DNA of 64,000 nt from positions 62,001 to 126,000 of the IMG/VR virus record IMGVR_UViG_3300020473_002209. One strand, given 5' to 3'. Made by a program: the position numbers and the translations under genes. Shown here one piece after another: positions 11,095 through 54,501 of this stretch. The notes beneath the pieces are model-generated. The model made no database searches. It saw nothing but the letters and a program-made list of their open reading frames with translations, and had not been told where the DNA came from. Position 1 is the stretch's first letter, and every line of letters starts with the position of its first letter. The stretch comes from a virus.

Positions 11095-12105
11095 ATGCTG
11101 GTTCATCTAGACTACATTTGGGTTGACGGCTTTGAAAACCCGTCAATCAGATCAAAAACTAAAACGGCAGTACTGCAGGTCGATGAAAACGGTGAAGTGC
11201 AGCTAGACGTTCCAGAATGGAATTTTGATGGTTCATCAACTGGTCAGGCTGACACAGGCGACTCTGAAAGAATTCTTAAGCCACAATCGATGTATCAGAT
11301 TGCAGATAATCATTATGTCGCGCTATGTGAAGTGTGTATGCCGGATGAAGACAGGACCCCCCACCCCTCAAACTATAGAGCAAAATTAAGGGAAGCAGTG
11401 AGAGAAACAGAGGGCGCAAAAGAAATGTGGGTTGGTTTCGAGCAAGAGTATTTTATCACCGCAGCTGGTAAGAATGTATTTTGGCCAGACTCTGGTGAGC
11501 CAGTTAAGGATTCTAGATACTATTGCTCTTCAGGTGGTAGCGTTAAGTTCAGAAAAATGGTCAGAGAACACGCTTCATTCTGTAATCAAGTGGGCATTAG
11601 GGTTGTGGGTTACAATGCAGAGGTTTCCCCAGGACAGTGGGAGTATCAGTGCTTTGCTGAAAATCCGCTCACCGCCGCAGACTCATTGTGGGTTAGCCGA
11701 TATATCTTGGAGCTAATGACTGAAGACCTTGAGCTTGGTATAGACTGGCACCCCAAGCCTCACCCCGGGTGGAACGGGTCGGGCTGTCACACTAATTTTT
11801 CTACAAAAAAGATGCGGGAAGAAGGTGGTAAAGAAGAATTCCAGCGTATTATTTCTAACATGGAAGCTCGCCATAACGAATCAATATCAGAGTACGGTGA
11901 AGATAATTCCTTACGCTTGACGGGTGGGTTTGAGACAGCTTCATTAAACCAATTTTCATACGGTGTTGCTTCACGTGACACTTCTGTAAGAATACCAAAC
12001 CGTGTTGTAGAGCAAGAATGGAAGGGCTATCTTGAGGATCGTCGTCCTTCGTCAGGGTGTGACCCTTACAGGGTCGCTTTACAACTTTGCAAGTTTGTAC
12101 AATAA
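11095..12105 (+). CDS. Glutamine synthetase, type II (GSII)
   Basis: An ATP-dependent glutamate-ammonia ligase of the shorter eukaryote/GlnII type (336 residues) rather than the ~470-residue bacterial GSI. Signatures include WNFDGSSTGQA, the Glu-rich GFEQEYF strand, AEVSPGQWEYQ, NGSGCHTNFSTKKMREEGG and SRDTSVRIPNRVV followed by GYLEDRRPSSGCDPY. The active-site Glu and Arg residues appear intact, so it is probably active and could change host nitrogen flow or supply glutamine for nucleotide synthesis. AAGGAGAA precedes the ATG. An auxiliary metabolic gene of this type is unusual in a phage. Confidence 0.93.
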   Translation: MLVHLDYIWVDGFENPSIRSKTKTAVLQVDENGEVQLDVPEWNFDGSSTGQADTGDSERILKPQSMYQIADNHYVALCEVCMPDEDRTPHPSNYRAKLREAVRETEGAKEMWVGFEQEYFITAAGKNVFWPDSGEPVKDSRYYCSSGGSVKFRKMVREHASFCNQVGIRVVGYNAEVSPGQWEYQCFAENPLTAADSLWVSRYILELMTEDLELGIDWHPKPHPGWNGSGCHTNFSTKKMREEGGKEEFQRIISNMEARHNESISEYGEDNSLRLTGGFETASLNQFSYGVASRDTSVRIPNRVVEQEWKGYLEDRRPSSGCDPYRVALQLCKFVQ

Positions 12106-12543: not shown

Positions 12544-13251
12544 GTGAAAAGAATTGAGCTTTATAACGACGCCATCGGCGCCGTTGAGTATGTTGAACAC
12601 ATGGGGTCAGATTTGACAGTGATAAACAGCGCGAGGGTTTCATTCGGAAAAGTAAAGGAATCGCTAGATGAAAAAGATAAAAAGCTTATTCGCTACCTTA
12701 TCAAGCACAGGCATACGTCGACTCTTGAGCACAATGTTATTACTTTCCGGTTTACTGTACCTCTTTTTGTGCGCAGCCAGCATCACCGCCACAGAACTTG
12801 GTCTTATAATGAGATATCTAGAAGGTACACCGACGTAGACATTAGGTTTTATGAGCCGAAGAGTTTCAGGACCCAGCATAAGTCAAATCGACAAGCTTCG
12901 AACACCAACGAAATGATAGACCCTGTACTGATTCCAGATCTATCAGATCCTGATGTTGGGTTAACAGCAGCGCATTGTATAGAACAACACCATAAGCTGT
13001 CTTTGCGCCTCTATAACGACCTCATGAAGAACGGCGTTTGTCGAGAGCAGGCTCGTGGGGTATTACCTCAAAACCTCTATTCAGAGTACTATGGAACAGT
13101 CAACTTAAACAATCTACTTAAGTTTGTTGAGCTACGTGTCCATGAGGGCGCTCAGTGGGAAATACAGCAGGTGGCGAGAGCGTGCCTGGAAATTGCGAAA
13201 GAAATTTGGCCCGAAACTATTTCTGCATATCGAGAACTTCGCGATATTTGA
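12544..13251 (+). CDS. thyX: FAD-dependent thymidylate synthase ThyX
   Basis: Makes dTMP from dUMP using FAD and methylene-tetrahydrofolate. The diagnostic motif RHR-x-x-S-x-NE-x-S-x-R-Y is present at residues 82-95 (RHRTWSYNEISRRY), and the length (235) is normal. GTG start directly after the TGA of the thioesterase gene. The phage also encodes a ThyA-fold protein at 19.9 kb; since ThyX already provides dTMP, the second enzyme is free to have another substrate. Confidence 0.95.
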   Translation: MKRIELYNDAIGAVEYVEHMGSDLTVINSARVSFGKVKESLDEKDKKLIRYLIKHRHTSTLEHNVITFRFTVPLFVRSQHHRHRTWSYNEISRRYTDVDIRFYEPKSFRTQHKSNRQASNTNEMIDPVLIPDLSDPDVGLTAAHCIEQHHKLSLRLYNDLMKNGVCREQARGVLPQNLYSEYYGTVNLNNLLKFVELRVHEGAQWEIQQVARACLEIAKEIWPETISAYRELRDI

Positions 13252-14352: not shown

Positions 14353-14652
14353 ATGAGCTCTAACCAACCAACATACACAATGGATGACACAACAATCGGA
14401 CATGTCGCCCAATTACTTCAGCTTGCAATTTTGACTGGTACTGATATTATCGATCATTTTCGGACTGCAAGGTTCACTACAAGTGATGAAGGCACGCTTA
14501 CACTCCATCCAGACTATGCAGAAAATTTTGACGATAACGTACAGAAGATGCTAAGAGATGCTGCTGCTGAGGCGAAGCCCGAACCAGACACTAGAGAGTG
14601 GGGAACCACAGAAGTTTCTTTTTCTCTTAATCAGGATGGCCTCAAAGAATAA
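14353..14652 (+). CDS. Hypothetical protein, 99 residues
   Basis: Not recognised. An N-terminal helical part (IGHVAQLLQLAILTGTDIIDHFRT) is followed by a beta-like stretch (TLTLHPDYAENF) and an acidic tail. It has a good ribosome site (GGGAGA, 8 nt before the ATG). The stop overlaps the dUTPase start, which suggests co-translation. Confidence 0.65.
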   Translation: MSSNQPTYTMDDTTIGHVAQLLQLAILTGTDIIDHFRTARFTTSDEGTLTLHPDYAENFDDNVQKMLRDAAAEAKPEPDTREWGTTEVSFSLNQDGLKE

Positions 14653-15026
14653 TGGACGACAAGCTTCAAAGAATATTCGCTTTACGTGAAGAATTTATGC
14701 AGAAGATAAACTCTACAGTCCCCGATGCATATCCATCGTGGCCTGTAGATTTGAGCAAGAAAAAGAACCAGAAAGCAATTCGTGAATTTGCGTTTCGTGG
14801 AATGGAAGAGTTGTTCGAAGCGCTTCTGCACTTGAAGAATTGGAAAGACCACAGAGAAGAAACATACGGCGTTCCAGAGTTTGATCGGGAAGAATTTTTA
14901 GAAGAAATGATTGATGCGTTCAATTATTTTCTTGCGATAATTGTGCTTTCTGGTGTAGACTATAAAGAGTTTTTCAACGCTTATGTAAGGAAACACGATA
15001 TTATAACGGAGCGCTTAGATGCATAG
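14652..15026 (+). CDS. Dimeric all-alpha dUTPase-like nucleotide pyrophosphatase
   Basis: 124 residues of the all-alpha NTP pyrophosphohydrolase group (dUTPase/MazG). The metal-binding pattern is visible: FRGMEELFEALLHLKNW (EE-x2-E helix) and EFLEEMIDAFNYFLAI (E-x2-D helix). It should hydrolyse dUTP to dUMP, feeding ThyX and keeping uracil out of DNA. If the phage uses modified cytosine it might instead act on dCTP; the sequence alone does not decide. Confidence 0.8.
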   Translation: MDDKLQRIFALREEFMQKINSTVPDAYPSWPVDLSKKKNQKAIREFAFRGMEELFEALLHLKNWKDHREETYGVPEFDREEFLEEMIDAFNYFLAIIVLSGVDYKEFFNAYVRKHDIITERLDA

Positions 15027-16155: not shown

Positions 16156-16184
16156 TTGAAAACAGCGGCTTTTTGTGGTATAAT
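16156..16184 (+). promoter_or_regulatory. Strong sigma-70-type promoter for dnaE and the modification operon
   Basis: TTGAAA at 16156-16161, exactly 17 nt, then TATAAT at 16179-16184. A second TATAAT follows at 16187-16192. The dnaE ATG is 24 nt downstream. Confidence 0.9.
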
Positions 16185-16208
16185 AGTATAATCAAACAGG
16201 AGCTCTTT

Positions 16209-19200
16209 ATGAGAAATTCGTCCCTTACTCCCCCTAGTAAGTTTATTTCCCTTCATTCACATGACGGGTTTAGTACGTTCGACGGCTTAGGTTATCCACA
16301 AGAACACATTGACTTTGTTATTGAAAATGGTATGGATGGCTGGTGCCTTACGAACCATGGTCACATGAATTCTTTTGGGCATGCATTTCTACATGCAGAA
16401 AAAGTCCAAAAGCGTGGCGGGGTTTTTAAGTTTGTACCTGGCTGCGAAATGTACGTTCACCCTGATCTCGAGGCGTGGAAGCTTGATATGGAAATTCGCC
16501 AAGCTGCAAAGAAGGGGGATAAAGATGCGCTTCATGTCTTGCGTGCTCAACGAGAAGCAATTGCCACACCCCTCACAGCAGTGGTCGATGGTGATGATGA
16601 GGTTGTTGATATTGGTAAGGAGGAAGCTGGTCTCACAATCGAGAATGAAGAAGAGACGAAGTCTTCTAAATTTTATGACCCAATTAAGCGTAGACATCAT
16701 CTGGTGGTGCTGCCTAAAACAAGCGTAGGCCTCCAACGCCTTTTTCATCTTGTGAGTAGAGGGTACAGGGAGGGATTCTATAGGTTCCCTCGTGTCGATT
16801 ATAAGATGTTAAGAGAGGCTGCTGAGGGTGGTCACCTTATGGTCTCCACAGCATGTATCGGTGGTCCGATTGCGTATGAAGTATTTCGCCATGCTCAAAA
16901 TGTGGAATTCGATGACTTGAGCTACAAGCTTATGGACGATCGATCATTTTATGAGAATGTCATGACAGGTGTTGGTAATGCGTACCAGGGTCTTGTCGAT
17001 GCAGTGGGAATTAATGATGTCTGCTTGGAGCTGCAATTCAATAAGCTTCCTGCACAGCACCTTGTTAATCGAGCGATTATCGAATTTGCGAATGCAAACG
17101 GTCTACAGGATAAGCTGGTTGTAACTACCGATTCTCACTATGCTCGTCCTGAACACTGGCGTGAGCGTGAGCTTTATAAAAAGCTGGGGTGGCTCAACTA
17201 TCGTGAGTTTGATCCCTCGAAGCTTCCTCAGTCGAAAGAAGACCTGAAGTGTGAGCTATACCCTAAAAATGCTCAACAGGTTTGGGATACATATCTTGAA
17301 AGTACAGAAGGCATGCCGTTTTACGATGACCAGATTGTAAAAGATGCCATTGAGCGACCACACCAAGTTGTTCATGAAGAGATGGAGACTATCACTCCGG
17401 ATCGTACTATGAAGCTTCCATCTTACGTCGTTCCCGAAGGAATGTCTGATGATAAGGCGCTACTTGAAGCATGTAAGAAGGGTCTTGTAGAGCGAGGTCT
17501 TGCAGGGGACCCTAAGTACATCGAGCGAATAAAGCACGAACTACAGATTATTAAGGATAAGAATTTCTCTCGATACTTCTTAACAATGGAAGCGATCATT
17601 GGGATTGCTAAGCAGGCGATGCTTGTCGGTCCGGGTCGTGGTTCTGCAGCTGGCAGTCTTGTTGCTTATGTTCTTAAATTGACAGATGTTGATCCATTCG
17701 AATATGATCTTATGTTCGGTCGTTTTTTGAATCCATCTCGTGAAGGTGCCCCAGATATCGATACCGACGTAGGAGATCGAGACCTGCTTATCAACATGAT
17801 GAAGGAGAAGTGGGGCGATGAGAACATCGTACCGATTTCTAACTACAACACATTCAAGTTGAAGTCTTTGGTAAAAGACATTTCTAGATTTTATGGCATT
17901 CCATTCAACGAAGTAAATAAAGCGCTAGCACCCGTTGAGGAAGACGTGAAGCGTGCGGTGTTTAAGCAAGGTACAGATAAGAACCTTTTCGTCTTGCTTT
18001 ACGAAGATGCGCTTGCTCATTCAAAGACGTTTAGAGCATTTATCGAAAAGTACCCAGAAGTCGCCGCACCAATTCAGGTCTTGTTTAAGCAGAACAAAGC
18101 TCTTGGTCGCCATGCTGGGGGTTGTATTGTCGCAGAGGATATAGCTGAAAGAATGCCACTCATCAAGGCTCGTGGTGAGCTCCAGACCCCCTGGGCTGAA
18201 GGCATGAACTATAAGCATCTTGAGACATTCGGCTGGATTAAGTTCGATCTTCTTGGCCTTGAAACGCTTCGAATTATCCAGCGGACCATCGAGCTCATCC
18301 TACAGCGAAAGGAGGGTATCGAAGACCCAACGTTTGCTCAGGTGTATGAATGGTTTAACGCCAACATGGATCCGAAAGTTCTTGACATGGACGACCAGCA
18401 TGTATACGATCACGTTTATGGAAAGGGCCGCTGGGCTGGCATCTTTCAGCTGGCAGGCCGCGGCGCTCAGAACTTGTTCAAAAAGGCGAAGCCTAAGAGC
18501 ATCATTGATATTGCTACCCTAACTTCTATCTACCGACCTGGCCCTCTCACTGCGAAGGTCGATAGGTTGTATATCAAGGCGAAGAACAATCCTGATGATA
18601 TTGATTATGGCCACCCGCTAATCAAGGAGGTTCTTGAAGAAACGTACGGCCTGATTGTCTTCCAGGAGCAGATCATGAAGTTGTGTTCCGTGGTTGCTGG
18701 CTTCCCCGAGGAGGAAACAGACACTGTGCGCCGAAGCATTATGAAGCGCAAAGCTTCTGAGGCTGCTGAGTCCCTTGCTAAGGCTCGATCTATTAAGGAA
18801 CAGTTTGTCGCAGGCTCAGTTAAGAACGGTGTCGACCGCCAGCTGGCTGATGATCTTTACGAAAAGATTCTTTTCTTTGCTGGATACGGCTTCAATAAGT
18901 CTCACGCTGTTTGTTACGCCATTGACTCGTATTACTGCGCATGGCTATTAACATATTTTGAGGAAGAGTGGTTGTGCGCTTATCTTGAAGCAATGTCAGG
19001 TAATGACAAGAAGCGTGCCAAAGCGTTCGCAGAAGTCAAGGCGCTGGGCTATCGCGTTGCCCCGCTAGACATCAACTACGCAACTAAGAAGTGGACAATT
19101 CTTGAGGGTAAGAAATTCATGCCCTCACTGCTGTCATGTAAGGGTATTGGTGAGTCTGCGATTGATGAGCTTGTTGCTAATCGGCCGTACCAAACTGTGG

Positions 19201-19829
19201 ATGATCTCTTGTGGACTGACGAGGGCAAGTGGAAGCACTCTAAGTTTAACAAGCGGGCCCTCGAGGCTTTAATCAATATTCGCGGTTTTGAGTCAATGGA
19301 CATCGTTGGTCCTGGTAAGACGTTTGAGAGTTATAAGCACATGCATGAAGTAGTGATAGGTCGCCAGAATGATATCAAGAAGTGGACTAAGCGTGATCCA
19401 GAACGCGGGAGGAATAATTTCAAAGAAGCCCTGCTTGAGACGCAAGGGACTGGCCACTGGTCACGCCGTGAGATGGTAGAGAATAGCGTAAAGCACTTTG
19501 GGTCGTTCAACGCCTCGACTCTTATCAGCGAAGAAGTACAAGAGCGGCTTGCTGCAAAAGATATCGCATGTATTGATGAGATTGATACCAGAGGTCATGA
19601 CGTGTATTGGTTCCTCGTATCTGATGTGAAGCCTAAGTTGACAAAGAACAAGAGGCCATATCTTCTGGTCACCGCAACAGGTCTAGAGGGTAAAAACTTC
19701 CGGATGTTTTGTTGGGGCTGGGATGGCGAGACAGAGCTTCCGCTGTACAGTCTTTGCTGCGCAGAGGTCAAGAAAAATGATTTCGGATATCAAACTTCTA
19801 TGAGTAAAGTCAAGCTTCTTCGTATATGA
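16209..19829 (+). CDS. dnaE: DNA polymerase III alpha subunit (DnaE, family C)
   Basis: A complete family C polymerase of about 1206 residues. The PHP domain is at the N-terminus (FISLHSHDGFSTFDG; LTNHGHMNSFGHA). The palm carries GPGRGSAAGSLVAYVL and the catalytic PDIDTD triad region, then VFQEQIMKLC and the fingers/tau-binding parts. The ATG at 16209 follows AGGAG by 6 nt. Having both a family A and a family C polymerase is unusual for one phage; DnaE may be the fork enzyme and the other a repair or lagging-strand enzyme. No intein was seen. Confidence 0.95.
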   Translation: MRNSSLTPPSKFISLHSHDGFSTFDGLGYPQEHIDFVIENGMDGWCLTNHGHMNSFGHAFLHAEKVQKRGGVFKFVPGCEMYVHPDLEAWKLDMEIRQAAKKGDKDALHVLRAQREAIATPLTAVVDGDDEVVDIGKEEAGLTIENEEETKSSKFYDPIKRRHHLVVLPKTSVGLQRLFHLVSRGYREGFYRFPRVDYKMLREAAEGGHLMVSTACIGGPIAYEVFRHAQNVEFDDLSYKLMDDRSFYENVMTGVGNAYQGLVDAVGINDVCLELQFNKLPAQHLVNRAIIEFANANGLQDKLVVTTDSHYARPEHWRERELYKKLGWLNYREFDPSKLPQSKEDLKCELYPKNAQQVWDTYLESTEGMPFYDDQIVKDAIERPHQVVHEEMETITPDRTMKLPSYVVPEGMSDDKALLEACKKGLVERGLAGDPKYIERIKHELQIIKDKNFSRYFLTMEAIIGIAKQAMLVGPGRGSAAGSLVAYVLKLTDVDPFEYDLMFGRFLNPSREGAPDIDTDVGDRDLLINMMKEKWGDENIVPISNYNTFKLKSLVKDISRFYGIPFNEVNKALAPVEEDVKRAVFKQGTDKNLFVLLYEDALAHSKTFRAFIEKYPEVAAPIQVLFKQNKALGRHAGGCIVAEDIAERMPLIKARGELQTPWAEGMNYKHLETFGWIKFDLLGLETLRIIQRTIELILQRKEGIEDPTFAQVYEWFNANMDPKVLDMDDQHVYDHVYGKGRWAGIFQLAGRGAQNLFKKAKPKSIIDIATLTSIYRPGPLTAKVDRLYIKAKNNPDDIDYGHPLIKEVLEETYGLIVFQEQIMKLCSVVAGFPEEETDTVRRSIMKRKASEAAESLAKARSIKEQFVAGSVKNGVDRQLADDLYEKILFFAGYGFNKSHAVCYAIDSYYCAWLLTYFEEEWLCAYLEAMSGNDKKRAKAFAEVKALGYRVAPLDINYATKKWTILEGKKFMPSLLSCKGIGESAIDELVANRPYQTVDDLLWTDEGKWKHSKFNKRALEALINIRGFESMDIVGPGKTFESYKHMHEVVIGRQNDIKKWTKRDPERGRNNFKEALLETQGTGHWSRREMVENSVKHFGSFNASTLISEEVQERLAAKDIACIDEIDTRGHDVYWFLVSDVKPKLTKNKRPYLLVTATGLEGKNFRMFCWGWDGETELPLYSLCCAEVKKNDFGYQTSMSKVKLLRI

Positions 19830-19873: not shown

Positions 19874-20905
19874 TTGCATATTGGTACGTACCAGTCGTTT
19901 ACACATTGCTACATATCGTTGGTAAGAAATGTTTATGAAAATCCAGCGTTTGAAGCAGCACCTCGTGGCCAAAAGGTCAAAGAAATACTCGGGGCATCAT
20001 TTACAATCACCAACCCAAGAGACAGAATTCCCTATGTTGCCGGTCGTAAGTTCAGCATTTCGTACATGGTTGCAGAGCTTGTGTGGTATCTTTCTGGTAA
20101 TAACGAAACAGCGTGGATTTCAAAGTATTCAAATTTCTGGCGTAATATCTCCGATGATGGTGTGACAGCGAATTCTGCTTATGGTGCAAGACTCTTTAAG
20201 CACCACCCCAAGATTGCTCAAGGAAGATTTAATCAGTGGGAATACATCATCGATGAGCTTACACGTGATCCAGACTCCCGTCGTGCAGTGATGCACTTGA
20301 GGGTTCCTGATGACAGCATCGACGCTAAGCTGGATGTACCCTGTACACTTGCTCTTCAATTTTTTATTAGAGATGGTAAGTTACACCAGGTTGTAAATAT
20401 GAGAAGCTCCGACGTGATATTCGGTATTGCATATGATATTCCAGCGTTCACAATGTTCCAAGAATTGCTTGCCAATGAGCTGGGCGTTGGGCTTGGTACA
20501 TACACACACACCAGTAATTCACTGCACATATATGAGCGCCACTTCGAGATGGCAGAGAGTATTTTACAAACTTCTAACGTCAATAAGTCACAGTTTGCGC
20601 TTTGGAAAAAGTACGGCCCGATGCCACCACTTAATTGTGTTTCAAGAGATGAGCTCTCTTATTGGACAGACAAGATGATGGAGCTTGAGAAAGACTTGAC
20701 CAACTCGACATCAGTGGATTCTGTCCACCAAGCATTCCGCCGTGTATTTGCGTATCCGACTGCTGATGCACTGACATGGCATGATTTCGCAGTGGTATTA
20801 GCCGCTGATAGAATAAGAAAGATATCTACCAGGGATGAGGCAAGAAAAATGTTAGAAAATTTGAAATTTGAAGGTTATCGGTTTAACACAAGGAGTGTAA
20901 AGTGA
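19874..20905 (+). CDS. Thymidylate-synthase-fold enzyme, probable deoxycytidylate hydroxymethylase
   Basis: A 343-residue ThyA-fold protein. Cys157 (DVPCTLALQF) is the nucleophile, RRAVMHL the phosphate Arg, RSSDV the substrate loop and THTSNSLHIY the C-terminal His/Tyr. In thymidylate synthase an Asn in the L-G-L-P-F-N segment selects uracil; here the matching residue is Asp188 (GIAYDIP). T4 dCMP hydroxymethylase has Asp at this place. As dTMP is already covered by ThyX, hydroxymethyl-dCMP is the likely product. TTG start after a GTGGAG site. Followed without gap by sugar-nucleotide genes. Confidence 0.8.
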   Translation: MHIGTYQSFTHCYISLVRNVYENPAFEAAPRGQKVKEILGASFTITNPRDRIPYVAGRKFSISYMVAELVWYLSGNNETAWISKYSNFWRNISDDGVTANSAYGARLFKHHPKIAQGRFNQWEYIIDELTRDPDSRRAVMHLRVPDDSIDAKLDVPCTLALQFFIRDGKLHQVVNMRSSDVIFGIAYDIPAFTMFQELLANELGVGLGTYTHTSNSLHIYERHFEMAESILQTSNVNKSQFALWKKYGPMPPLNCVSRDELSYWTDKMMELEKDLTNSTSVDSVHQAFRRVFAYPTADALTWHDFAVVLAADRIRKISTRDEARKMLENLKFEGYRFNTRSVK

Positions 20906-22032
20906 GTAAGTACGATTATCTGATTGTGGGTTCAGGAATATTTGGGTCTACATTTGCTAGAGAAATGACAGATGCCGGGTATAGGTGTCTTGTCATAGAT
21001 AAGCGAGACCATATCGCTGGTAACGTCTATTCAGAAAAGCGGAATGGTGTGGATGTCCATGTGTACGGAGCGCACATCTTTCATACCAGCAGCGATCGCA
21101 TTTGGGATTATGTAAACCGATTCGCGACCTTTAACAACTACATCAATAAGCCGAAGATTCGTTTCAATGATCGTATTTTTTCGTTCCCCATTAATTTAAT
21201 GACGCTCCACCAGTTGTGGGGTGTTATGACCCCTGCCGAAGCAGAAGCCAAGCTGGAAGAAGTCCGGATTCCGTGTGAGAACCCTGATAATCTTGAAGAC
21301 TGGATTCTTTCTCAAGTCGGTCGTGAAGTTTATGAGACTTTCATCAGGGGCTACACGATGAAGCAGTGGCAGCGAGATCCAAAAGAGTTACCCGCTTCCA
21401 TCATCAAGCGTCTTCCTATCCGAATGGTTTTTGAAGAAAACTATTTCTTTGACAAGTATCAGGGGATCCCTAAGGAAGGGTATACTCAGATGGTTGCGAA
21501 TATGCTGGAAGGTATTGAGGTCAGGACAGGCGTCGATTATTTTGCGAATAGAGATGAGCTGAACAGTCTTGCTGAAAAAGTTGTGTTCACTGGAAAGATC
21601 GATGAGTATTTTGGTTATCAGTTTGGAGAGCTAGAATATAGAACGCTTCGCTTCGAACATGAAGAGCTTGAGGGAGACTTTCAGGGAAATGCAGTTGTAA
21701 ACTATACACATCCTGATGTTCCATACACTCGGATTGTTGAGCATAAGCATTTCTTACCAGAGACGGCTAGTAAGATTCCAAACACTATTATTACTCGTGA
21801 ATATTCAGATGAGTATAAGCGTGGAAAGACGCCTTACTACCCCATTAACAATGAGAAGAATACTTCAATGTATAAGAAGTATGCTGCTATGGCTCATGAA
21901 GAATCAGGAGTCATTTTCGGCGGAAGGTTGGCAGAATACAAGTACTACGACATGCACCAAGTTATCGGTTCTGCACTTGTAAAAGCTAAGCGTGAGCTTG
22001 AAAAACGTAAGAAATCAACATATAATGGTTAA
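20902..22032 (+). CDS. glf: UDP-galactopyranose mutase
   Basis: A flavoenzyme that interconverts pyranose and furanose UDP-sugars. The N-terminal FAD fold (YDYLIVGSGIFGSTFARE), DKRDHIAGN, YGAHIFHTS and the C-terminal GRLAEYKYYDMHQVIG motif are textbook, and the 376-residue length is normal. GTG start overlapping the previous stop. Placed directly behind the hydroxymethylase-like gene and ahead of a glycosyltransferase, it could supply a furanose donor for DNA or another phage target. Confidence 0.95.
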   Translation: MSKYDYLIVGSGIFGSTFAREMTDAGYRCLVIDKRDHIAGNVYSEKRNGVDVHVYGAHIFHTSSDRIWDYVNRFATFNNYINKPKIRFNDRIFSFPINLMTLHQLWGVMTPAEAEAKLEEVRIPCENPDNLEDWILSQVGREVYETFIRGYTMKQWQRDPKELPASIIKRLPIRMVFEENYFFDKYQGIPKEGYTQMVANMLEGIEVRTGVDYFANRDELNSLAEKVVFTGKIDEYFGYQFGELEYRTLRFEHEELEGDFQGNAVVNYTHPDVPYTRIVEHKHFLPETASKIPNTIITREYSDEYKRGKTPYYPINNEKNTSMYKKYAAMAHEESGVIFGGRLAEYKYYDMHQVIGSALVKAKRELEKRKKSTYNG

Positions 22033-22047
22033 TATTAAGGAGAAAAA

Positions 22048-23103
22048 ATGAGGGTCTTGTATAGTTTTTGGGGGTTTATCACTCCGCTGGAAAAGAATAG
22101 CATTGTTGATACACCTGATGGTGAGCGCGGCAACCGCGTTGATTGGGTGAATGAGCTACTTAAGCGCGGTCACACACCGATTCAGCTCCAGAAAATGAGG
22201 GATGATGAGCAGTATCCCGGCGTGGAGTATGACGATTCCGGCTTTCCAGACGGAGATATTCTCTACGTAGAGTGGCGATGGCCGACTTGGAAAAATAGCG
22301 GCGAAAATCCTGCTGAGCCAGACTATAATAGGCAATGCCAGGTGCTTGACTACTATCATGAGCAAGGGATTCCAATTGTTATTGTCGATGGTGATCTTAA
22401 GATGACGCCTGAAGAAGAGCTGCGCTGGCCAAATGCCATACTTGCAGATGCATGCGTTTCACCACAGCATCAGACTCGTAAGCGTATCACAATCCCTTGG
22501 TGCAACTATATGAAGAGGTACTTTGAGCCAGTTGAGTATTCGTACAATTACACATACGTCGGAAACAACTACGAGCGTGAAGAGCCTTTTGCGAAGTATT
22601 ACACTGGACCGAGTACCGCACTTCGTGCAGGCGGCGTTCAGACAATGATTTATGGAAACTGGCTTAATAAGTCACCTGAGAGAATTGATCCAGCAAAGCT
22701 ACTTGCCCAGACTCCAAACGTTGCTTTCGGTCCGCGGTTGGCGTATAAAGACATCTTTGGTGTTCTTAATTCTTCTATCACTGTGACCCACATCACTAAG
22801 CCAGCATACACTCCGTTCGGGAATATCACTGGACGCTTTTTCGAAGCGATTAAGAGTAACGTCCCCGCGCTAATCCCTATCGAGTTTCAGCATGCTGTCC
22901 CTGTCGCTCTTTCAGATAAGTCTTTGCTGGTTGAATCGTCACGAGATGTGTTTGAGAAAGTGAAGTGGCTATCCACGCTTAATGGCGAACAGAGGAAGGC
23001 TCTTGTTGATGCACAAGAGGAGGCTCTGAGGACCGTGATCGACCCGCGGCCTGAATATAGGACTGATTTGCTCGAGCACATTCTGGGGGACTATCGGGCA
23101 TGA
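22048..23103 (+). CDS. Glycosyltransferase-like protein (GT-B type)
   Basis: 351 residues resembling GT-B glycosyltransferases. The N-terminal half has the split-Rossmann look (MRVLYSFWGFITPLEKNS, GDILYVEWRW, IPIVIVDGDLKM); the C-terminal half contains GNITGRFFEAIKSNVPALIP, the donor-binding helix with a Glu following a Gly/Arg as in GT4-like enzymes. AAGGAG ribosome site. Position between the mutase and a kinase suggests it uses the furanose sugar. Whether the acceptor is hydroxymethyl-cytosine in DNA is inference. Confidence 0.75.
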   Translation: MRVLYSFWGFITPLEKNSIVDTPDGERGNRVDWVNELLKRGHTPIQLQKMRDDEQYPGVEYDDSGFPDGDILYVEWRWPTWKNSGENPAEPDYNRQCQVLDYYHEQGIPIVIVDGDLKMTPEEELRWPNAILADACVSPQHQTRKRITIPWCNYMKRYFEPVEYSYNYTYVGNNYEREEPFAKYYTGPSTALRAGGVQTMIYGNWLNKSPERIDPAKLLAQTPNVAFGPRLAYKDIFGVLNSSITVTHITKPAYTPFGNITGRFFEAIKSNVPALIPIEFQHAVPVALSDKSLLVESSRDVFEKVKWLSTLNGEQRKALVDAQEEALRTVIDPRPEYRTDLLEHILGDYRA

Positions 23104-23624
23104 AAATTGCGTTCATCGGGCCAGACATGACAGGGAAATCTAATATTGCCGCAGAGCTGTCTCTACAGACTGGAATTCCAGTATTTAAGAATTCTGGAGA
23201 GTGGAAAACTGAACTCGGTAGTCCTGATTACTTTCTTAACCTTTTGCGCTACGGCGGTCCATTCCTCATGGACTTTATGAAGCAGACTGATGTGAAAGTA
23301 ATCCTTGACCGCTTTTATCCTTGTGAGCTCGTATACGCAGAAGCATTCGAGCGAGAGACCGATATGTCTGCGATATCTTGGATGGATGTGAATTTTGCCG
23401 AAGCATCTGGCAAATTTATTATTTGTTTGCGCAAAGATTATTCTGGCTTGATTGATGATCAATACCCTGATGATTTACCAAAAGAAATGCTTGAAAAGCT
23501 TGATAAGCTGTACAGGGCGTTTGCCGACACAACAGATTGCGATTGTCTTATTTTAGAAACCGACGATAGAGACTTGAACAATCAGATCAAAAAGATTAAA
23601 ATGTTCTTAGGAATTAAAACTTAG
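23100..23624 (+). CDS. P-loop nucleoside/nucleotide kinase
   Basis: 174 residues with Walker A GPDMTGKS near the N-terminus and the D-R-F-Y (ILDRFYPCE) motif of deoxynucleoside and thymidylate kinases, plus a lid-like segment. In a hydroxymethylcytosine pathway a dNMP kinase is needed to raise hm-dCMP to the diphosphate, as T4 gp1 does, so this role fits the position. A general dNMP kinase is an equal alternative. ATGA overlap with the transferase gene. Confidence 0.75.
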   Translation: MKIAFIGPDMTGKSNIAAELSLQTGIPVFKNSGEWKTELGSPDYFLNLLRYGGPFLMDFMKQTDVKVILDRFYPCELVYAEAFERETDMSAISWMDVNFAEASGKFIICLRKDYSGLIDDQYPDDLPKEMLEKLDKLYRAFADTTDCDCLILETDDRDLNNQIKKIKMFLGIKT

Positions 23625-23640
23625 AGAATTGGAGGATTTT

Positions 23641-24645
23641 GTGCGTTTACGTAAAGCACTAGTAACGGGCTGCTGTGGATTTATAGGCAGTCATGTAACA
23701 CAGCAGCTAGTTGAGGCTGGCTGGTATGTTGAGGGGGTTGATGATTTGTCAAATGGCGACTTGTCCACTCTTGAGGGCATGCGATACCGCACAGTAACAG
23801 AGGGAATGCTTCATCTGTATGATGAGCAGGCTGGGGTGCCACTTGCTGGTGAGTTGCTGGTTATAACAGCAGATTTTGCAGCAGGACAAGTTTTGTCTCG
23901 TGTCGCTGCCGGAGATTATGATGTGATTTTTCACCTGGCTGCAAACCCGCGAGTTGAATATTCTGTCAAATATCCAGCATTGACAACGCACACAAACGTT
24001 CAGAAGACGATCGAGCTGATGTCAGCTGCAATTAACAAAATAGACCGATTTGTATTTGCGTCTTCATCAGCTTGCTATGGAGAGGTTGCTCACCTTCCAA
24101 CGACAGAGGAAGAAGCAGAAGACCCAACTTCTCCTTACGGGCTACAGAAGCTTGTGGTTGAACAATTCGCTGAAATGTATACCAAACTTTATGGGATGGA
24201 TTTCGTCGCGCTAAGGTTCTTCAATGTATACGGTCCAGGACAACTCGGGGATTCACCATATTCAACAGCAGTCGCAGCGTGGTGTACACGCCTGAAGAAT
24301 GGCGATCCACTCAGGAGCGATGGCGACGGTGAGCAGACAAGAGATATGATATATGTTAAAGACGTTGCGCAAGCAATGATTGCAGCTGCAGACCACCCTG
24401 AGTATCTTGGGTTTCAGATGTACAATGTCGCCACAGGTGAGTCGGTTTCAAATAACCAGATTTTAGGTGTACTGAAAGAGTACTTTCCTGACCTAACCAT
24501 CACTCATGCACCAGAGAGGGCAGGTGATGTTAAGCATACATTGGGGTGTATAAATAAGATTAGCGAAGATCTTAGCTGGCATCCTCGGAAGCAATTCTGG
24601 GATGGCTTAAGAAAAACGCTTCAATGGTGGGAGCTAATCGATTAA
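23641..24645 (+). CDS. NAD-dependent nucleotide-sugar epimerase (GalE-like)
   Basis: An extended short-chain dehydrogenase. TGCCGFIGSHV is the NAD-binding Gly motif, FASSSACYGE holds the catalytic Ser, and SPYGLQKLVVEQ the Tyr-x3-Lys pair. RFFNVYGPGQ and the substrate-binding C-terminus follow. It probably makes a UDP-hexose such as UDP-galactose, the substrate of the mutase three genes upstream. GTG start at 23641 lies 6 nt after GGAGG, better than the in-frame TTG at 23629. Confidence 0.88.
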   Translation: MRLRKALVTGCCGFIGSHVTQQLVEAGWYVEGVDDLSNGDLSTLEGMRYRTVTEGMLHLYDEQAGVPLAGELLVITADFAAGQVLSRVAAGDYDVIFHLAANPRVEYSVKYPALTTHTNVQKTIELMSAAINKIDRFVFASSSACYGEVAHLPTTEEEAEDPTSPYGLQKLVVEQFAEMYTKLYGMDFVALRFFNVYGPGQLGDSPYSTAVAAWCTRLKNGDPLRSDGDGEQTRDMIYVKDVAQAMIAAADHPEYLGFQMYNVATGESVSNNQILGVLKEYFPDLTITHAPERAGDVKHTLGCINKISEDLSWHPRKQFWDGLRKTLQWWELID

Positions 24646-25085
24646 TGAATAGATGCATTTGGCCAGGAAGATCAATAGCAACTGAGAAGCCGTGGGGCTA
24701 TGAAGTCCAGTGGTGCGGCATCTTTTATGGCAAAGAAATTCACCTAAGGGCAGGCCATCGAACTAGCTTGAAGTTTCACCCCAAGAAAGAAGAAGCGTTG
24801 TATGTTCAGAAGGGCTTGATTGAGGCAGAAATCGCAGACGAAAGACACTTTTCAGACCACATACTTCATCCAGCTCGAATCGTGACATTAGGACCTGGCG
24901 AAATAATAAATGTTCAAGCCGGGTGTGCGTACAGATTGACAGCAGTGGATGATAGCGTTGTTTTTGAAATTTCCTCAGGCTCTGACTCTTCCTCTCCTGT
25001 TCGTTTGGAAGACGATTATGGTCGTGAAGTTGACCAAAGTGGCAAATATATTTTTGTGCACCCGACAAAAGAAAATGATAATTAA
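24645..25085 (+). CDS. Cupin protein, mannose-6-phosphate isomerase-like
   Basis: About 146 residues with a single cupin barrel. The segment EKPWGYEVQW, then GKEIHLRAGHRTSLKFHPKK, resembles the C-terminal cupin of type II phosphomannose isomerase/GDP-mannose pyrophosphorylase; His residues in RTSLKFHPKKEE could bind metal. Start taken at the ATG overlapping the epimerase stop (TAATG); an in-frame ATG 21 nt upstream is possible. Last of the sugar genes, so it may isomerise or bind a sugar phosphate. Confidence 0.72.
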   Translation: MNRCIWPGRSIATEKPWGYEVQWCGIFYGKEIHLRAGHRTSLKFHPKKEEALYVQKGLIEAEIADERHFSDHILHPARIVTLGPGEIINVQAGCAYRLTAVDDSVVFEISSGSDSSSPVRLEDDYGREVDQSGKYIFVHPTKENDN

Positions 25086-25105: not shown

Positions 25106-25960
25106 ATGAGTTCAATGGACCCAAATTCGGTTAACGTAGTGATTTATCATGCAGACTGTACAGACGGTTTCGGCGCAGCTTACTCTGCTTGGAAGCAACT
25201 TGGAAACCGAGCAGAATATTACGCATGCAAGCATGGTACAACACCTCCAGATGTGAAAGGAAAAAACGTTGTAATTCTTGATTTTTCTTGGGATAAGGCG
25301 ACGATCAAGAAGATGATAAAGAAAGCCAAAAATCTACTGATCATCGATCACCACAAGTCAGCTATGGTCGAGCTTCATGATATCTCAAATACTTATTTTG
25401 ATATGACGAAGAGCGGAGCAATGCTGGCGTGGGAATGGTTTCACCCAGGAAAAGAGCCGCCAAAATTCATAAAGTATATTCAAGATCGTGACCTATGGGA
25501 GTGGAAGCTTGAATATTCTAAAGAATTCAGCGCGGCATTTGATATGGTGCCGTTTGAATTTGAAGAGTTCGAGAAGTTTGAAGATGACTCTGTTTTTGAT
25601 GACGCATGTAAGCGTGGGTCCTACATCCTCGCGTATAGCAAGACGGTTGTCAAAAAAGTTTGTGAAAAAGCTCAACCCCGTACGATGGGTGGTAAGTCTG
25701 TCTTGGTGGTAAATGCCTCCCACTGGATGTCTGAGATTGGTGCTCGCTTAGCCCCTGATTGTGATTTTGCAATGATCTGGTATTGGGATCATGAAGATGA
25801 AATAACAAAGGTTAGCTTAAGAGCTTTTCACGATAGCGTTGATGTTTCCGAGATCGCAAAGCAGTTTGGCGGAGGCGGTCACAAGAAAGCAGCGGGATTT
25901 ACTTTACCTAAGGAGAAACACATTGAAGAACTTTTTGACACAGCCGAGCCCGAGGTATGA
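25106..25960 (+). CDS. DHH/DHHA1 phosphoesterase
   Basis: 284 residues with the complete DHH layout: HADCTDGFGAAYSAW (motif I), a VVILDFS strand, IIDHHKS (the DHH motif) and the C-terminal DHHA1 substrate motif GGGGHKKAAGF. Such enzymes degrade nanoRNA, pAp or cyclic/linear di-nucleotides. Possible roles are recycling short RNA for nucleotide pools or removing signalling nucleotides made by host defence; the sequence does not separate them. The 3' end overlaps the methyltransferase gene by 38 nt. Confidence 0.85.
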   Translation: MSSMDPNSVNVVIYHADCTDGFGAAYSAWKQLGNRAEYYACKHGTTPPDVKGKNVVILDFSWDKATIKKMIKKAKNLLIIDHHKSAMVELHDISNTYFDMTKSGAMLAWEWFHPGKEPPKFIKYIQDRDLWEWKLEYSKEFSAAFDMVPFEFEEFEKFEDDSVFDDACKRGSYILAYSKTVVKKVCEKAQPRTMGGKSVLVVNASHWMSEIGARLAPDCDFAMIWYWDHEDEITKVSLRAFHDSVDVSEIAKQFGGGGHKKAAGFTLPKEKHIEELFDTAEPEV

Positions 25961-26516
25961 TATTGTCTACCTGGATCCACCATGGGATTACAAAGGCCAG
26001 CTCCAACATAGTAAGCCTGGAATGGGTGATACAGGTGGCGCTCGCAAGCATTATGGTACACTCAAGCTAAAGCAGCTTAAGCAGTTTCCAATGCAGAAAC
26101 TCATGAATGATGATGCACTGGTATTTATGTGGGTGACGAACCCACATCTTGACCAAGGTATTGAGCTTCTAAAAAGCTGGGGATTGAAATATGCAACCGT
26201 TGGGTTTGTGTGGAACAAGATGCGAGTTAATCCTGGCTTTTACACAATGTCCCAATGTGAGCTTTGTCTTGTCGGAAAGAATGGGAAAATTCCGCGCCCT
26301 CGTGGAGCAAGGAATGTACGCCAATATCTTGAGCACATGCGCGAACAGCACAGCAAAAAGCCAGACGAAGTGCGCGTACGAATTGAGCAAATGTTTCCAG
26401 ATCAGACGAAGGTCGAGCTTTTCGCAAGGCACCAAAACCCAGGGTGGTCAGCTTGGGGCGATGAAGTTGAGAGCTGTGAAAGCCTTAAGAGGTATTTGAA
26501 TGAGCTCGGATGGTAG
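25923..26516 (+). CDS. MT-A70-family adenine methyltransferase
   Basis: An N6-adenine methyltransferase of the MT-A70 group. The catalytic DPPW motif is in YDIVYLDPPWDYKG near the N-terminus; MWVTNPHLDQG and the VELFARHQNPGWSAWG ending are also typical. Start taken as TTG at 25923, because AAGGAG lies 6 nt before it and the domain begins there; upstream in-frame codons run inside the DHH gene. Likely methylates phage DNA against host restriction. Overlaps the deaminase gene by 17 nt. Confidence 0.85.
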   Translation: MKNFLTQPSPRYDIVYLDPPWDYKGQLQHSKPGMGDTGGARKHYGTLKLKQLKQFPMQKLMNDDALVFMWVTNPHLDQGIELLKSWGLKYATVGFVWNKMRVNPGFYTMSQCELCLVGKNGKIPRPRGARNVRQYLEHMREQHSKKPDEVRVRIEQMFPDQTKVELFARHQNPGWSAWGDEVESCESLKRYLNELGW

Positions 26517-26919
26517 GCCAGAATGGGATGAGATATGGATGGGCTTTGCTCATTCCATATCTCGTAGATCATACGATCCCAGACACCAAGTTGGTGCCGT
26601 TATCGTGACCAAAGAGAATACACAGGTTCTTGCTGTAGGATATAACGGCAATTACTCTGGTGGGCCCAATGAAGTAGAGTCCACAGAGCCAGGAAGCTCA
26701 GGAATGATCCACGCTGAGATTAACGCATTGTTAAAATGTGACTATAATATTCGCGGAAGAAAAATCATGTATGTGACTCTTAGTCCATGCAAGATGTGCG
26801 CGAAAGCAATAATCAATGGTGGCGTTTCTGAAGTGGTTTATGACGAAGAATATAGGGATATGTCCGGAGTCGACCTACTTAAGTCCGCAGGAGTCACGGT
26901 TAGACGCTATAGAACGTAG
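26500..26919 (+). CDS. Deoxycytidylate (dCMP) deaminase
   Basis: A zinc deaminase of 139 residues: HAEINALL supplies the His ligand and catalytic Glu, SPCKMCAKAI the two Cys ligands. RRSYDPRHQVGAVIV and VGYNGNYSGGPNE are typical of the dCMP group. It would make dUMP for ThyX. In a phage with modified cytosine it also competes for dCMP, so the two pathways must be balanced. GAGG precedes the ATG. Confidence 0.88.
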   Translation: MSSDGRPEWDEIWMGFAHSISRRSYDPRHQVGAVIVTKENTQVLAVGYNGNYSGGPNEVESTEPGSSGMIHAEINALLKCDYNIRGRKIMYVTLSPCKMCAKAIINGGVSEVVYDEEYRDMSGVDLLKSAGVTVRRYRT

Positions 26920-41373: not shown

Positions 41374-41542
41374 GGAGCAGCTTGCGAGAATGCGCGCTTC
41401 GGGAGTTATAGAGAGCAATGAAATAGCAATGACAGAGGGAGACCTTCTAGTCGCAGTTAACGTGATTACTGGAGCGAGAAGACTGCTGCAGTCACCCCCA
41501 TTAAGAGAGGGGTCTAGCAATAAGAGGCTCTTGAAGGGATGA
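41351..41542 (+). CDS. Hypothetical protein, 63 residues
   Basis: Small, Arg/Glu-rich, no known domain. Overlaps the FEN by 23 nt and GroEL by 4 nt, so it may mainly couple translation of the two. A GAAAG weak ribosome site. Confidence 0.5.
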   Translation: MAGNTLPEEQLARMRASGVIESNEIAMTEGDLLVAVNVITGARRLLQSPPLREGSSNKRLLKG

Positions 41543-43125
41543 TAGAGCAAGATAACAGGATCATAACTTTTTCAGATGAATCCAGAGAGCTAATTCGAGT
41601 TGGCGTTGAGAAGTTGGCAGATGCTGTCCGTGTAACAATGGGCCCAAGCGGTAAGAATGTCTTAATTGAGCATCTCAATGCTCCCCCAACGTTGACCAAA
41701 GATGGTGTGACTGTTGCTAGGGCGATTAATTTACGAGATCGTTTTGCAAATTTAGGCGTTCAGCTTGTGCGTGAAGCAGCTCAACGTACAGCTGAAGAAG
41801 CTGGTGACGGAACAACCACTGCGACCGTGCTGGCTTGCGCTATCTTTCAGGAAGGATTGAAAGCATTAGCTGGCGGTCATGAATTGAGAGATATTCGATC
41901 AGGTATTCGAGAAGCTTCAGAGCAACTGTGCAAAGAAGTTAGCGCTAGCGCCGTTCCCGTTAAGTCAGATGAGGATCTCCAAAGGGTTGCCAACATTTCC
42001 GTGAATAACGAACCAGAGCTGGCTGATTTGATTGTTCAGGCGCTAAAAGCTGTAGGCAATCATGGGACCGTAACAGTAGATGAAGCAAAGGGGTTTGAGA
42101 GCTCTCTAGAGGTCGTAGATGGCTGCGAATTAGATCGTGGGTATGTTTCACCATATTTTGTTAACAAGCCTGCCAGAATGTCTTGTGAGCTTGTTAAACC
42201 AGCTATTTTGGTTACTGACCAGCGAATAAGCTCTGTTCATGATATCATGCACTTTATGGAAGAAGCAGCAAGAGATAATCGTCCGTTGGTTGTAATTGGG
42301 CCAGAGACGACGGGCGACGCTCTTCAGGGATTGATACTGAATCATTCAAAAAATCTAATACGAGCTTGTGTTCTTGCAGCTCCTGAGTTTGGCACTTCAC
42401 GTCTTGAAGCCCTACATGATCTTGCGATATTGCTTGGTACCGAGCTTTTAACCGGTGAACCTTCGGGATGGAGATCAACAAAGCTTAGTGAATTGGGTTC
42501 CTGCAAGAAGATGACGTCATACAGGTTCAGAACAATTTTTATCGGTCCGGCTGGGACAGAAGAGAACGTGAATAATCGGATTAGCCAGATAAAAGAGGCT
42601 TCTATCGAGTATTCAGACGACAAAGAGATGCTAAGTGTGTTTATTCGTAGGATCAAGCGCATGAATAGTGGCATTGGTATTTTACGAGTTGGCGGCTCTA
42701 CCGAAGCAGAAATAAGCGAAAGAAAAGACAGGGTTGAAGATGCGCTTTATGCAACAAAGGCTGCAATGGAAGAAGGGATTGTTGCTGGGGGTGGATCCCT
42801 GCTCGCAAAGGTAGCGGAGTCTAGACTTAGGAAAGACAAGGGCACTTTGTCGATTGGTCATAAGATCTTGTATAACGCAGCCCAGCAGCCGCTTAAGCAG
42901 ATTGCTTCGAATTGCGGCTCTGTTCCCGAAGTAATTCTAGAAAAAATAATTGAAAAACCCAAGAATTTTGGGTATAATGGAAATTCCGGGAAAGTTTGTA
43001 ATCTAATGAAAGAAGGGATCGTTGATCCAGCAAAAGTAACAAGGCTTGCATTGCAAAATGCATCGAGCGTATCCATTAATTTACTCTCAATAGGATGCGC
43101 CATGGTTAGGGATGATGAGTTGTAG
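41539..43125 (+). CDS. groEL: GroEL-type chaperonin
   Basis: A full-length group I chaperonin subunit (528 residues). DAVRVTMGPSGKNVLIE, TKDGVTVARAI, GDGTTTATVLA (ATP site) and the apical-domain segment are present, and the second equatorial half (EEGIVAGGGSLLAKV) is complete. The Gly-Gly-Met tail is absent. No GroES or gp31-like gene was recognised in the window, so it may use host GroES, a co-chaperonin elsewhere, or work alone as reported for phage EL GroEL. ATGA-type overlap with the preceding gene. Confidence 0.95.
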   Translation: MIEQDNRIITFSDESRELIRVGVEKLADAVRVTMGPSGKNVLIEHLNAPPTLTKDGVTVARAINLRDRFANLGVQLVREAAQRTAEEAGDGTTTATVLACAIFQEGLKALAGGHELRDIRSGIREASEQLCKEVSASAVPVKSDEDLQRVANISVNNEPELADLIVQALKAVGNHGTVTVDEAKGFESSLEVVDGCELDRGYVSPYFVNKPARMSCELVKPAILVTDQRISSVHDIMHFMEEAARDNRPLVVIGPETTGDALQGLILNHSKNLIRACVLAAPEFGTSRLEALHDLAILLGTELLTGEPSGWRSTKLSELGSCKKMTSYRFRTIFIGPAGTEENVNNRISQIKEASIEYSDDKEMLSVFIRRIKRMNSGIGILRVGGSTEAEISERKDRVEDALYATKAAMEEGIVAGGGSLLAKVAESRLRKDKGTLSIGHKILYNAAQQPLKQIASNCGSVPEVILEKIIEKPKNFGYNGNSGKVCNLMKEGIVDPAKVTRLALQNASSVSINLLSIGCAMVRDDEL

Positions 43126-43523: not shown

Positions 43524-44285
43524 TTGGTTTTAGAAAGTTATTTTAGCGAGGTTGGAAAACATTCACTTCTTACTCGTGCTGAAGAAGTTGAATTAGCGAA
43601 GGCTATTGAGGCTGGAGACCAGCTTGCACGCGATCGGATGATCCAAGCAAATCTTAGGCTTGCTATTTCGATTGCTAAGAATTTCCGCGACAAAGGTTGT
43701 TCTTTTGAAGACCTTGTACAAGAGTCTAACATCGGATTGATTCGAGCCGTTGATAGATTTGACTGGCGGAAAGGATTCAAATTTAGCACGTACGCTGTTT
43801 GGTGGATTCGCCAAGCGGTGCAATCGCACGTTGCAGGACAGTCGGGGGCTATTAAGATGCCCACGTCAGCGCGTGCTGTCTTGTATAAGGCGTACAAGTT
43901 CAGGGAAGAGTACACAGAAGCCTTTAAGTGCGAGCCATCTCCTCAGGAGGTTGCAACCGCTGTAGGTGTGCCTGTTGAGACGCTTAAGGCAATTCGCAAA
44001 TCAGGTGCTCCACAAATCTCTCTTGATCGTCCTATCAATTCTGATGATTCGGGTAGCCGCACGTTTGCAGAGATTGTTGGTGGTGTTGATGACACAGACC
44101 CGGGTGACGAGCTTGACAAAGTCGTTATTCGTGAAACGCTTGTCGAGGCCCTTAAGGCTCTCTCATCGCGTGAGGAAAAGATCATTCGCTTGCGTTTCGG
44201 CCTCACCGAAGACGGTACAGACCATGTAAATTTTCCAATCACAAACAAAGAACACAAAGAAGTAATTAAGCGAGGTGCAAAATGA
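43524..44285 (+). CDS. Sigma-70-family factor lacking region 4.2
   Basis: 253 residues. Region 1.2/2 is full (LVLESYFSEVGKH, QANLRLAISIAKNF, FEDLVQESNIGLIRAV for core binding, KFSTYAVWWIRQAV for -10 recognition) and regions 3 and 4.1 follow (SSREEKIIRLRFGL). After that the usual -35-binding helix-turn-helix is missing and the chain ends in an unrelated 20 residues. The next gene, overlapping by ATGA, begins with a helix-turn-helix, so the -35 reader appears to be a separate polypeptide. TTG start after CCGGAGG. Confidence 0.88.
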   Translation: MVLESYFSEVGKHSLLTRAEEVELAKAIEAGDQLARDRMIQANLRLAISIAKNFRDKGCSFEDLVQESNIGLIRAVDRFDWRKGFKFSTYAVWWIRQAVQSHVAGQSGAIKMPTSARAVLYKAYKFREEYTEAFKCEPSPQEVATAVGVPVETLKAIRKSGAPQISLDRPINSDDSGSRTFAEIVGGVDDTDPGDELDKVVIRETLVEALKALSSREEKIIRLRFGLTEDGTDHVNFPITNKEHKEVIKRGAK

Positions 44286-52074: not shown

Positions 52075-52411
52075 TGGTGGAGGCGGCGGGAGTCGAACCC
52101 GCGTCCGCAATAGTCTTAGTTTGAGTCATCCACAAGCTTGTCTGATCATTTCTCCGACCAGTAGGATAGTCACTGCATTTTTTGCCTCCGCTGTGACCGA
52201 GTGAGGACTGGTGGGCTTTTATTCCTCAGCAGGACCAACTGCTCAAGCCTAAATTGGATAGATGGCTTTAGGCGGCCACCCGATTAAGCGGCTAAGCGCT
52301 CTTCGAAGTGATTGTTGTTATTTGCAACTATTGTTTTGAACGATTAGGGGCCGTTTCTTACCCGCTTGCACTCTCCCCTTGATTCTACCCCGTCGAAGCC
52401 GTTACGCCCCC
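52075..52411 (-). ncRNA. ssrA: Transfer-messenger RNA (one-piece tmRNA)
   Basis: A 337-nt tmRNA that rescues stalled ribosomes. The 5' end GGGGGCGTAACGGCTTCGAC and the 3' end with GGGTTCGACTCCCGCCGCCTC, then ACCA form a 7-bp acceptor stem (one G-U) and T-arm; CCA is encoded. The message part (52325 to 52284) reads GCA AAT AAC AAC AAT CAC TTC GAA GAG CGC TTA GCC GCT TAA. With the charged Ala the tag is AANNNNHFEERLAA, ending in the LAA used by ClpXP. A TATAAT sits at 52438-52433. It is not split, unlike alphaproteobacterial tmRNA. Confidence 0.95.
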
Positions 52412-52463
52412 GTTAAATGTTTGGTTTTTCTTATTATATTTATCGACATCGTAGTTTTTACGA

Positions 52464-52471
52464 CATATTTA
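52464..52471 (+). promoter_or_regulatory. CATATTTA motif, candidate late promoter
   Basis: Exact octamer 35 nt before the GTG at 52507 and divergent from the tmRNA. The 52412-52506 gap holds this motif, the tmRNA promoter on the other strand and the ribosome site, nothing else visible. Confidence 0.45.
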
Positions 52472-54500: not shown

Positions 54501-54501
54501 A

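Follow-up and report, generated by a model that had tools for sequence, protein, structure and literature searches.

Six closely packed genes occupy the plus strand at positions 19874–25085 of a 64,000-nucleotide stretch of viral DNA (hereafter, the window), which comprises bases 62001–126000 of the 126,620-base IMG/VR virus record IMGVR_UViG_3300020473_002209. In order, they encode a thymidylate synthase (TS)-like protein of the ThyA fold (19874–20905), a UDP-galactopyranose mutase (UGM; 20902–22032), a GT-B glycosyltransferase (GT; 22048–23103), a P-loop dNMP kinase-like protein (23100–23624), a UDP-hexose 4-epimerase (23629–24645), and a small cupin (24624–25085). Reading frames overlap at three junctions, by 4 bp at TS-like/UGM and GT/kinase and by 22 bp at epimerase/cupin, and the operon sits in a block of replication and nucleotide genes, after that for the DNA polymerase III alpha subunit. 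An earlier note had assigned this gene set to the interval 19874–24645 and suggested that it makes a furanose sugar and attaches it to 5-hydroxymethylcytosine (5hmC). All genes it named proved to be contiguous and in frame, with the cupin ending beyond that interval. Our own proposal, which we hold with evenly balanced belief and doubt, is that the phage DNA carries galactofuranosyl-5hmC, made via a phage UGM and an undescribed GT-B family, in a lineage that swaps its 5hmC decoration as a cassette at one locus.

What reaction does the TS-like protein catalyze? Domain databases label it a thymidylate synthase (Thymidylat_synt, E 4e-36). Its best match among PDB entries is the CMP hydroxymethylase MilA (E 2e-49), followed by thymidylate synthases (~1e-22 at best) and T4 dCMP hydroxymethylase (4e-19). 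The GIAYDIP motif that had drawn attention to the protein is present, and its Asp188 replaces Asn177/229 of TS and aligns with Asp179 of T4 dCMP hydroxymethylase and Asp186 of MilA, which serve cytosine recognition. This Asp and one other residue show the strongest association with viral contigs whose cytosine modification was established experimentally (PMC8670742). Across 50 distinct hydroxymethylase sequences, the window's own included, 12 active-site positions are invariant, and every sequence retains Asp188, the hydroxymethylation signature (Asp154-x-x-Cys157 plus Ser101-x-Tyr103), and the deoxyribose-selecting residues Arg136 and Ser178. An Asp three residues ahead of the catalytic Cys, the water-activating residue absent from TS, marks hydroxymethylation as opposed to methylation, together with Ser-x-Tyr (PMC6400193). 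Equivalents of MilA Lys133 and Ala176 were not found in the TS-like protein, which has Arg136 and Ser178 there instead; putting Arg and Ser into MilA (K133/A176) switches its use from CMP to dCMP (PMC5175136). Since the published diagnostic positions are all occupied as expected and invariant, cytosine hydroxymethylation is supported, and the assignment of the protein as a dCMP hydroxymethylase is strongly supported by its residues. With high confidence, we thus predict 5hmC to replace cytosine in the phage DNA. The notion of a T4-type enzyme stood with respect to the deoxy-type residues and fell with respect to overall sequence, which is nearer to MilA than to T4 gp42.

The family assignment of the second gene product as UGM, which would convert UDP-galactopyranose to UDP-galactofuranose, is secure at the level of sequence. 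It scores 369 bits against NCBIfam TIGR00031 (cut-off 304), has E. coli UGM (1i8t, E 1e-127) as its nearest solved structure, and contains the active-site motifs IKRLPIR, LEYRTL, PYTRIVEHK, and HIFHT. The last of these is E. coli-type (His59-type), unlike the HIFRT (Arg59) of C. jejuni UNGM. We take this residue to set the use of UDP-galactose versus UDP-N-acetylgalactosamine (UDP-GalNAc).

Searches with the GT sequence against 50,697 phage records, PHROGs, NCBIfam, and the PDB gave nothing, so that its assignment rests on fold and on comparison of profile hidden Markov models. An AlphaFold2 model built from 18 sequences (predicted local distance difference test, pLDDT, 79.6) adopts a GT-B fold, and Foldseek returned 227 PDB matches at E < 0.001 with GT-B enzymes on top, bearing out what the earlier note had read from the letters. 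A 31-member profile of the family matched the beta-glucosyltransferases (BGTs) of phages VPE25 and T4 at 31.6 and 26.7 bits, respectively, as compared to 10.5 bits for the best of 9,000 shuffles, and blastp of the window GT against VPE25 BGT gave E 0.002; full-length homology to T4 BGT was not found. The protein probably works like a DNA glycosyltransferase, though so partial a match does not make it a member of the BGT family. No kinship was detectable to RB69 ORF003c (hhalign probability 0.7%), phage G gp306/gp313, or the Aeromonas phage 25 neighbors.

What, then, would this GT act on? IMG/VR relatives were collected by GT search (26 loci) and with a hydroxymethylase profile (62 loci); recurrence of the cluster across these other metagenomes argues that it is not a chance arrangement. 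A core of hydroxymethylase, kinase, epimerase, and dCMP deaminase is kept in most of the relative loci. What varies is the decorating slot: among the 50 distinct hydroxymethylases, it is filled by the window GT family in 31 cases, by a protein of ~430 residues in seven, and by a carbamoyltransferase in another seven, the remainder consisting of one locus with a different GT alone (L058), one cut off after UGM, and three with no such cassette. The hydroxymethylase tree requires 11 changes of decorating label, against a minimum of three, indicating that decorating cassettes are swapped repeatedly at this locus. The carbamoyltransferase of the relatives (PF02543 plus PF16861) usually comes with an ATP-grasp protein. 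Paired with an Asp-type (Asp177) TS, such an enzyme marks cytosine-modified contigs, and it acts on 5hmC in vitro (PMC8670742). Interchangeable genes at a single locus probably modify a common acceptor, so that 5hmC in DNA is the most likely target of the GT; this slot exchange is our strongest argument. That 5hmC is glycosylated by the window GT strikes us as probable, if a little less so than the presence of 5hmC itself.

The other occupants of the slot deserve mention in their own right. The ~430-residue family (GT65; L065:6672-7991 and members in L067, L071, L078, L087, L095, and L096) has no Pfam or PHROG match and is a candidate for a further 5hmC modification. Carbamoyltransferase cassettes lie at L085:4151-7983, L100:4278-8005, and L101:5578-7993, with the ATP-grasp protein in L085 and L100. 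Directly ahead of the hydroxymethylase in all three is an unnamed open reading frame (ORF) of 218–232 residues that may belong to the 5-carbamoyloxymethylcytosine pathway.

The case for a furanose depends on how UGM is tied to this slot. UGM is present at 13 of the 50 distinct hydroxymethylase loci, each time with the window GT family (one contig stops before the GT), and at none of the 17 loci with another cassette or none. L058 is nested in the window's hydroxymethylase clade, and its 80-kb contig contains neither UGM nor a window-type GT and has a different GT instead. UGMs linked to a hydroxymethylase occupy three positions in the UGM tree (the window clade, L088, and Lactobacillus phage ATCCB), where the starred branches require a minimum of three changes; the UGM-bearing GTs form two separate groups in the GT tree. 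Support is good but not perfect for UGM having joined hydroxymethylase clusters three separate times, as the L088 and ATCCB branches are long. In ATCCB, UGM adjoins an Asp-type hydroxymethylase and a T4 BGT homologue (31% identity, E 1e-48). In the second clade, the GT lacks an adjoining UGM, which at first suggested that UGM is dispensable; one such contig (G008) has a UGM elsewhere, yet larger UGM-free contigs exist, and both observations stand. A host UGM could provide UDP-galactofuranose to phages without a gene of their own.

Three further genes complete the operon. The kinase-like protein has no detectable relative in phage records (tblastn). Its AlphaFold2 model (pLDDT 89) matches YorR, deoxyadenosine kinase, and thymidylate kinases in Foldseek, a profile match to YorR reaches E 5e-6, and the Walker A motif reads GPDMTGKS; the modeled fold bears out a dNMP kinase-like protein and is fitting for the role of T4 gp1, here as a proposed kinase of 5-hydroxymethyl-dCMP. 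The epimerase belongs to the GalE/WbpP class (Epimerase, E 9e-50; PDB matches 6dnt, 4zrm, WbgU, and WbpP), with short-chain dehydrogenase/reductase catalytic residues at Ser145-147, Tyr170, and Lys174 (YxxxK, 170-174). The cupin is recognized by PHROG 7851 (E 2e-12) and weakly by Cupin_2.

Further genes on the same strand flank the operon. Upstream lie ThyX, the flavin-dependent thymidylate synthase that had been expected to supply dTMP (12544–13251; Pfam Thy1 E 5e-49, NCBIfam thyX over cut-off), an all-alpha NTP pyrophosphohydrolase as candidate dCTPase/dUTPase (14652–15026; Pfam PRA-PH 22.7 bits, cut-off 21.3; PHROG nucleotide pyrophosphohydrolase E 3e-15), and the polymerase III alpha subunit (16173–19829; Pfam DNA_pol3_alpha E 2e-54). 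On modified contigs, PRA-PH proteins are found alongside TS and carbamoyltransferase (PMC8670742). Downstream of the cupin follow a DHH phosphoesterase, a conserved neighbor (25106–25960; PHROG 4771 E 2e-79), an MT-A70 family DNA adenine methyltransferase (25839–26516; Pfam MT-A70 E 6e-26), and a dCMP deaminase (26500–26919; PHROG 174 E 4e-50). The methyltransferase is a separate modification that some relatives lack. A glutamine-synthetase-like protein is encoded near ThyX (11095–12105) and kept in some relatives; ligases of this kind may participate in DNA hypermodification.

Together, this suggests a pathway wherein the dCTPase-like protein would lower dCTP and yield dCMP, from which the ThyA-like enzyme, strongly supported by its residues, would make 5-hydroxymethyl-dCMP. 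Judging from fold and linkage, the kinase may then produce the diphosphate, and host NDP kinase the triphosphate, 5-hydroxymethyl-dCTP, with which the phage polymerase would copy the genome, incorporating 5hmC. In parallel, family-level evidence points to the 4-epimerase supplying UDP-galactose and UGM converting it to UDP-galactofuranose. Finally, we infer from the linkage, the cassette swapping, and the distant likeness to T4 BGT that the GT-B enzyme puts the sugar on the hydroxymethyl groups of 5hmC in DNA, and the resulting galactofuranosyl-5hmC would shield the DNA from host nucleases. We consider this full pathway the best explanation, and on balance lean slightly towards it. As for the sugar itself, galactofuranose is our best prediction, with roughly an even chance of being right. 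A furanose is favored by the tie between UGM and GT, the three separate joinings of UGM, and the lack of any other GT of three common Pfam families in the record. The earlier reading is supported as to cytosine hydroxymethylation, gains from the UGM–GT linkage and from the slot exchange with carbamoyltransferases, and is still a prediction as to the sugar.

Two alternatives concern the hydroxymethylase. It might be a MilA-like CMP hydroxymethylase or an Xp12-like dCMP methylase, and no 5hmC in DNA would then come from it. MilA is indeed the best structural-database match, but Arg136 and Ser178 are the very residues that switch MilA to dCMP (PMC5175136), so that the MilA-like reading was ruled out by the ribose-selecting residues, and the invariant, water-activating Asp154 speaks against a methylase (PMC6400193); this leaves the alternative very improbable. 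An ordinary extra thymidylate synthase beside unrelated sugar genes would suit the domain-database label, yet Asp stands in place of the Asn and Leu of TS at the two diagnostic sites, NCBIfam scores stay under every TS cut-off, ThyX is present, and the synteny with kinase and GT is conserved, leaving it next to no credibility.

The sugar is less easily settled, and several observations count against galactofuranose. Window-type GTs occur without detectable UGM in long contigs (G002, 143 kb; G029, 202 kb; G030, 211 kb; G034, 213 kb; G035, 145 kb; G039, 205 kb), so some members of the family may use a donor other than a furanose, and the UGM of G008 lies distant from the GT, in a large sugar-nucleotide cluster. 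The epimerase gatekeeper, Thr304 (aligned by hand), is small, as in enzymes accepting N-acetylglucosamine (GlcNAc), and use of UDP-GlcNAc/GalNAc is therefore possible; its occurrence with carbamoyltransferase cassettes as well blurs the link between epimerase and sugar. The likeness of the GT to T4 BGT is weak and partial, confined to residues ~184–347 (the C-terminal donor half), and the 18-row GT profile matches no PDB entry. Accordingly, the same pathway might put a pyranose (galactose, glucose, or GlcNAc/GalNAc) on 5hmC, with UGM serving something else: the epimerase alone, far commoner than UGM, would yield UDP-galactose or UDP-GalNAc. Against this, UGM lies between hydroxymethylase and GT, overlapping the hydroxymethylase stop, it joined such clusters three separate times, and L058 lacks both UGM and window-type GT. 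No further GT of Pfam PF00535, PF00534, or PF13524 was found in the record or in two relatives (180 and 188 kb), the record being possibly incomplete and these three models prone to miss divergent GTs; a third relative (G009) has several. We regard a pyranose as possible, if rather doubtful. Alternatively, the hydroxymethylase may serve DNA precursors while UGM, GT, and epimerase do no more than share its operon, producing instead a glycan for the virion or a surface (e.g., in host envelope conversion). Most viral UGM genes retrieved are not near detected hydroxymethylases, so that a UGM gene by itself does not point to DNA modification; Streptococcus prophages have glf near their ends, and the G008 cluster is polysaccharide-like. 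However, carbamoyltransferases of the 5hmC type take turns with the GT in its slot, UGM is paired with a T4 BGT homologue in ATCCB, the genes are all within the replication/nucleotide block, and the three Pfam models revealed no other GT in the record. This makes a glycan role unlikely.

How does galactofuranosyl-5hmC, if made, compare to known modifications? Glycosylated 5hmC is already known, with glucose in T4 and arabinose in RB69, and a pentose on cytosine has been described in Thanatos (PMC6024577, PMC12838424). The logic is common with that of T4 glucosyl-5hmC (gp42, gp1 kinase, gp56 dCTPase, and alpha- and beta-glucosyltransferases): both have an Asp-type hydroxymethylase, a small kinase, a dCTPase-like protein, a dCMP deaminase, and a GT-B enzyme. 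Unlike T4, the window adds UGM and 4-epimerase, and its GT matches BGT weakly, in the C-terminal half. RB69 likewise places a non-glucose sugar, arabinose, on 5hmC with proposed phage sugar genes (PMC6024577), but its GT (ORF003c) is unrelated and its sugar genes (ORF053_052c/ORF055c, UDP-arabinose) differ from UGM and 4-epimerase. The 5-carbamoyloxymethylcytosine system shares the Asp-type TS, dCMP deaminase, and PRA-PH (PMC8670742); it has a carbamoyltransferase where the window has GT and UGM, and relatives of the window hold a carbamoyltransferase in that same slot. MilA and BcmA are CMP hydroxymethylases, MilA being the nearest solved structure, from which the window enzyme differs by its deoxy-type Arg and Ser. 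ATCCB (MK504445) and Enterococcus VPE25-type phages have an Asp-type TS, a BGT homologue, and a kinase-like gene, plus UGM in ATCCB; unlike the window GT, the GTs of these phages are genuine homologues of T4 BGT, and no epimerase is annotated beside the ATCCB cluster. The VPE25 TS shares the Asp and signature residues, and VPE25 cytosines are experimentally modified (bisulfite-resistant), its DNA resisting MspI (PMC4999554). In the cultured ATCCB, hydroxymethylase, BGT homologue, and UGM stand side by side (L002:7031-10086), and the isolation paper is silent on DNA modification. A literature search with incomplete coverage of subscription journals found no report of a furanosyl hexose on DNA, galactofuranose included, and a phage UGM mentioned in PMC6630229 is interpreted there as cell-wall related.

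Elsewhere in the window, a tmRNA gene lies on the minus strand (52075–52573; ARAGORN and Rfam) with the tag ANNNNHFEERLAA, overlapped by a match to the permuted-tmRNA model. At least five adjacent, otherwise different ORFs in 54201–58640 (starts at 54201, 56397, 56957, 57601, and 58182) share a near-identical N-terminal peptide (M-K/N-L-LREYIRELLTE-like) that could be a targeting or cleavable leader; the capsid-targeting sequence of T4 is a comparable leader peptide. The window further encodes a GroEL/Cpn60-like chaperonin (41539–43125), an RNA polymerase sigma factor (43524–44285), and a peptide deformylase (45430–46086). Among four-base palindromes, only CGCG and GATC (both 0.75 of the Markov expectation) and CATG (0.82) are clearly low, which is uninformative with the host unknown.

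Which restriction, CRISPR, and DNA-glycosylase defenses are effective depends on the sugars that phage DNA carries. If true, a furanose would add a chemical class to those known on DNA and require its own defense and counter-defense enzymes. Galactofuranose is absent from mammals, and a galactofuranosyltransferase acting on 5hmC, should the GT be one, could be a useful labeling tool. With its UGM and BGT cluster, the cultured phage ATCCB allows a direct test of the furanose idea. To us, the most interesting novelties are a GT family outside PHROGs and the swappable cassette locus: with one 5hmC core and exchangeable decorating cassettes, the locus appears modular, and its chemistry may be predictable from sequence.

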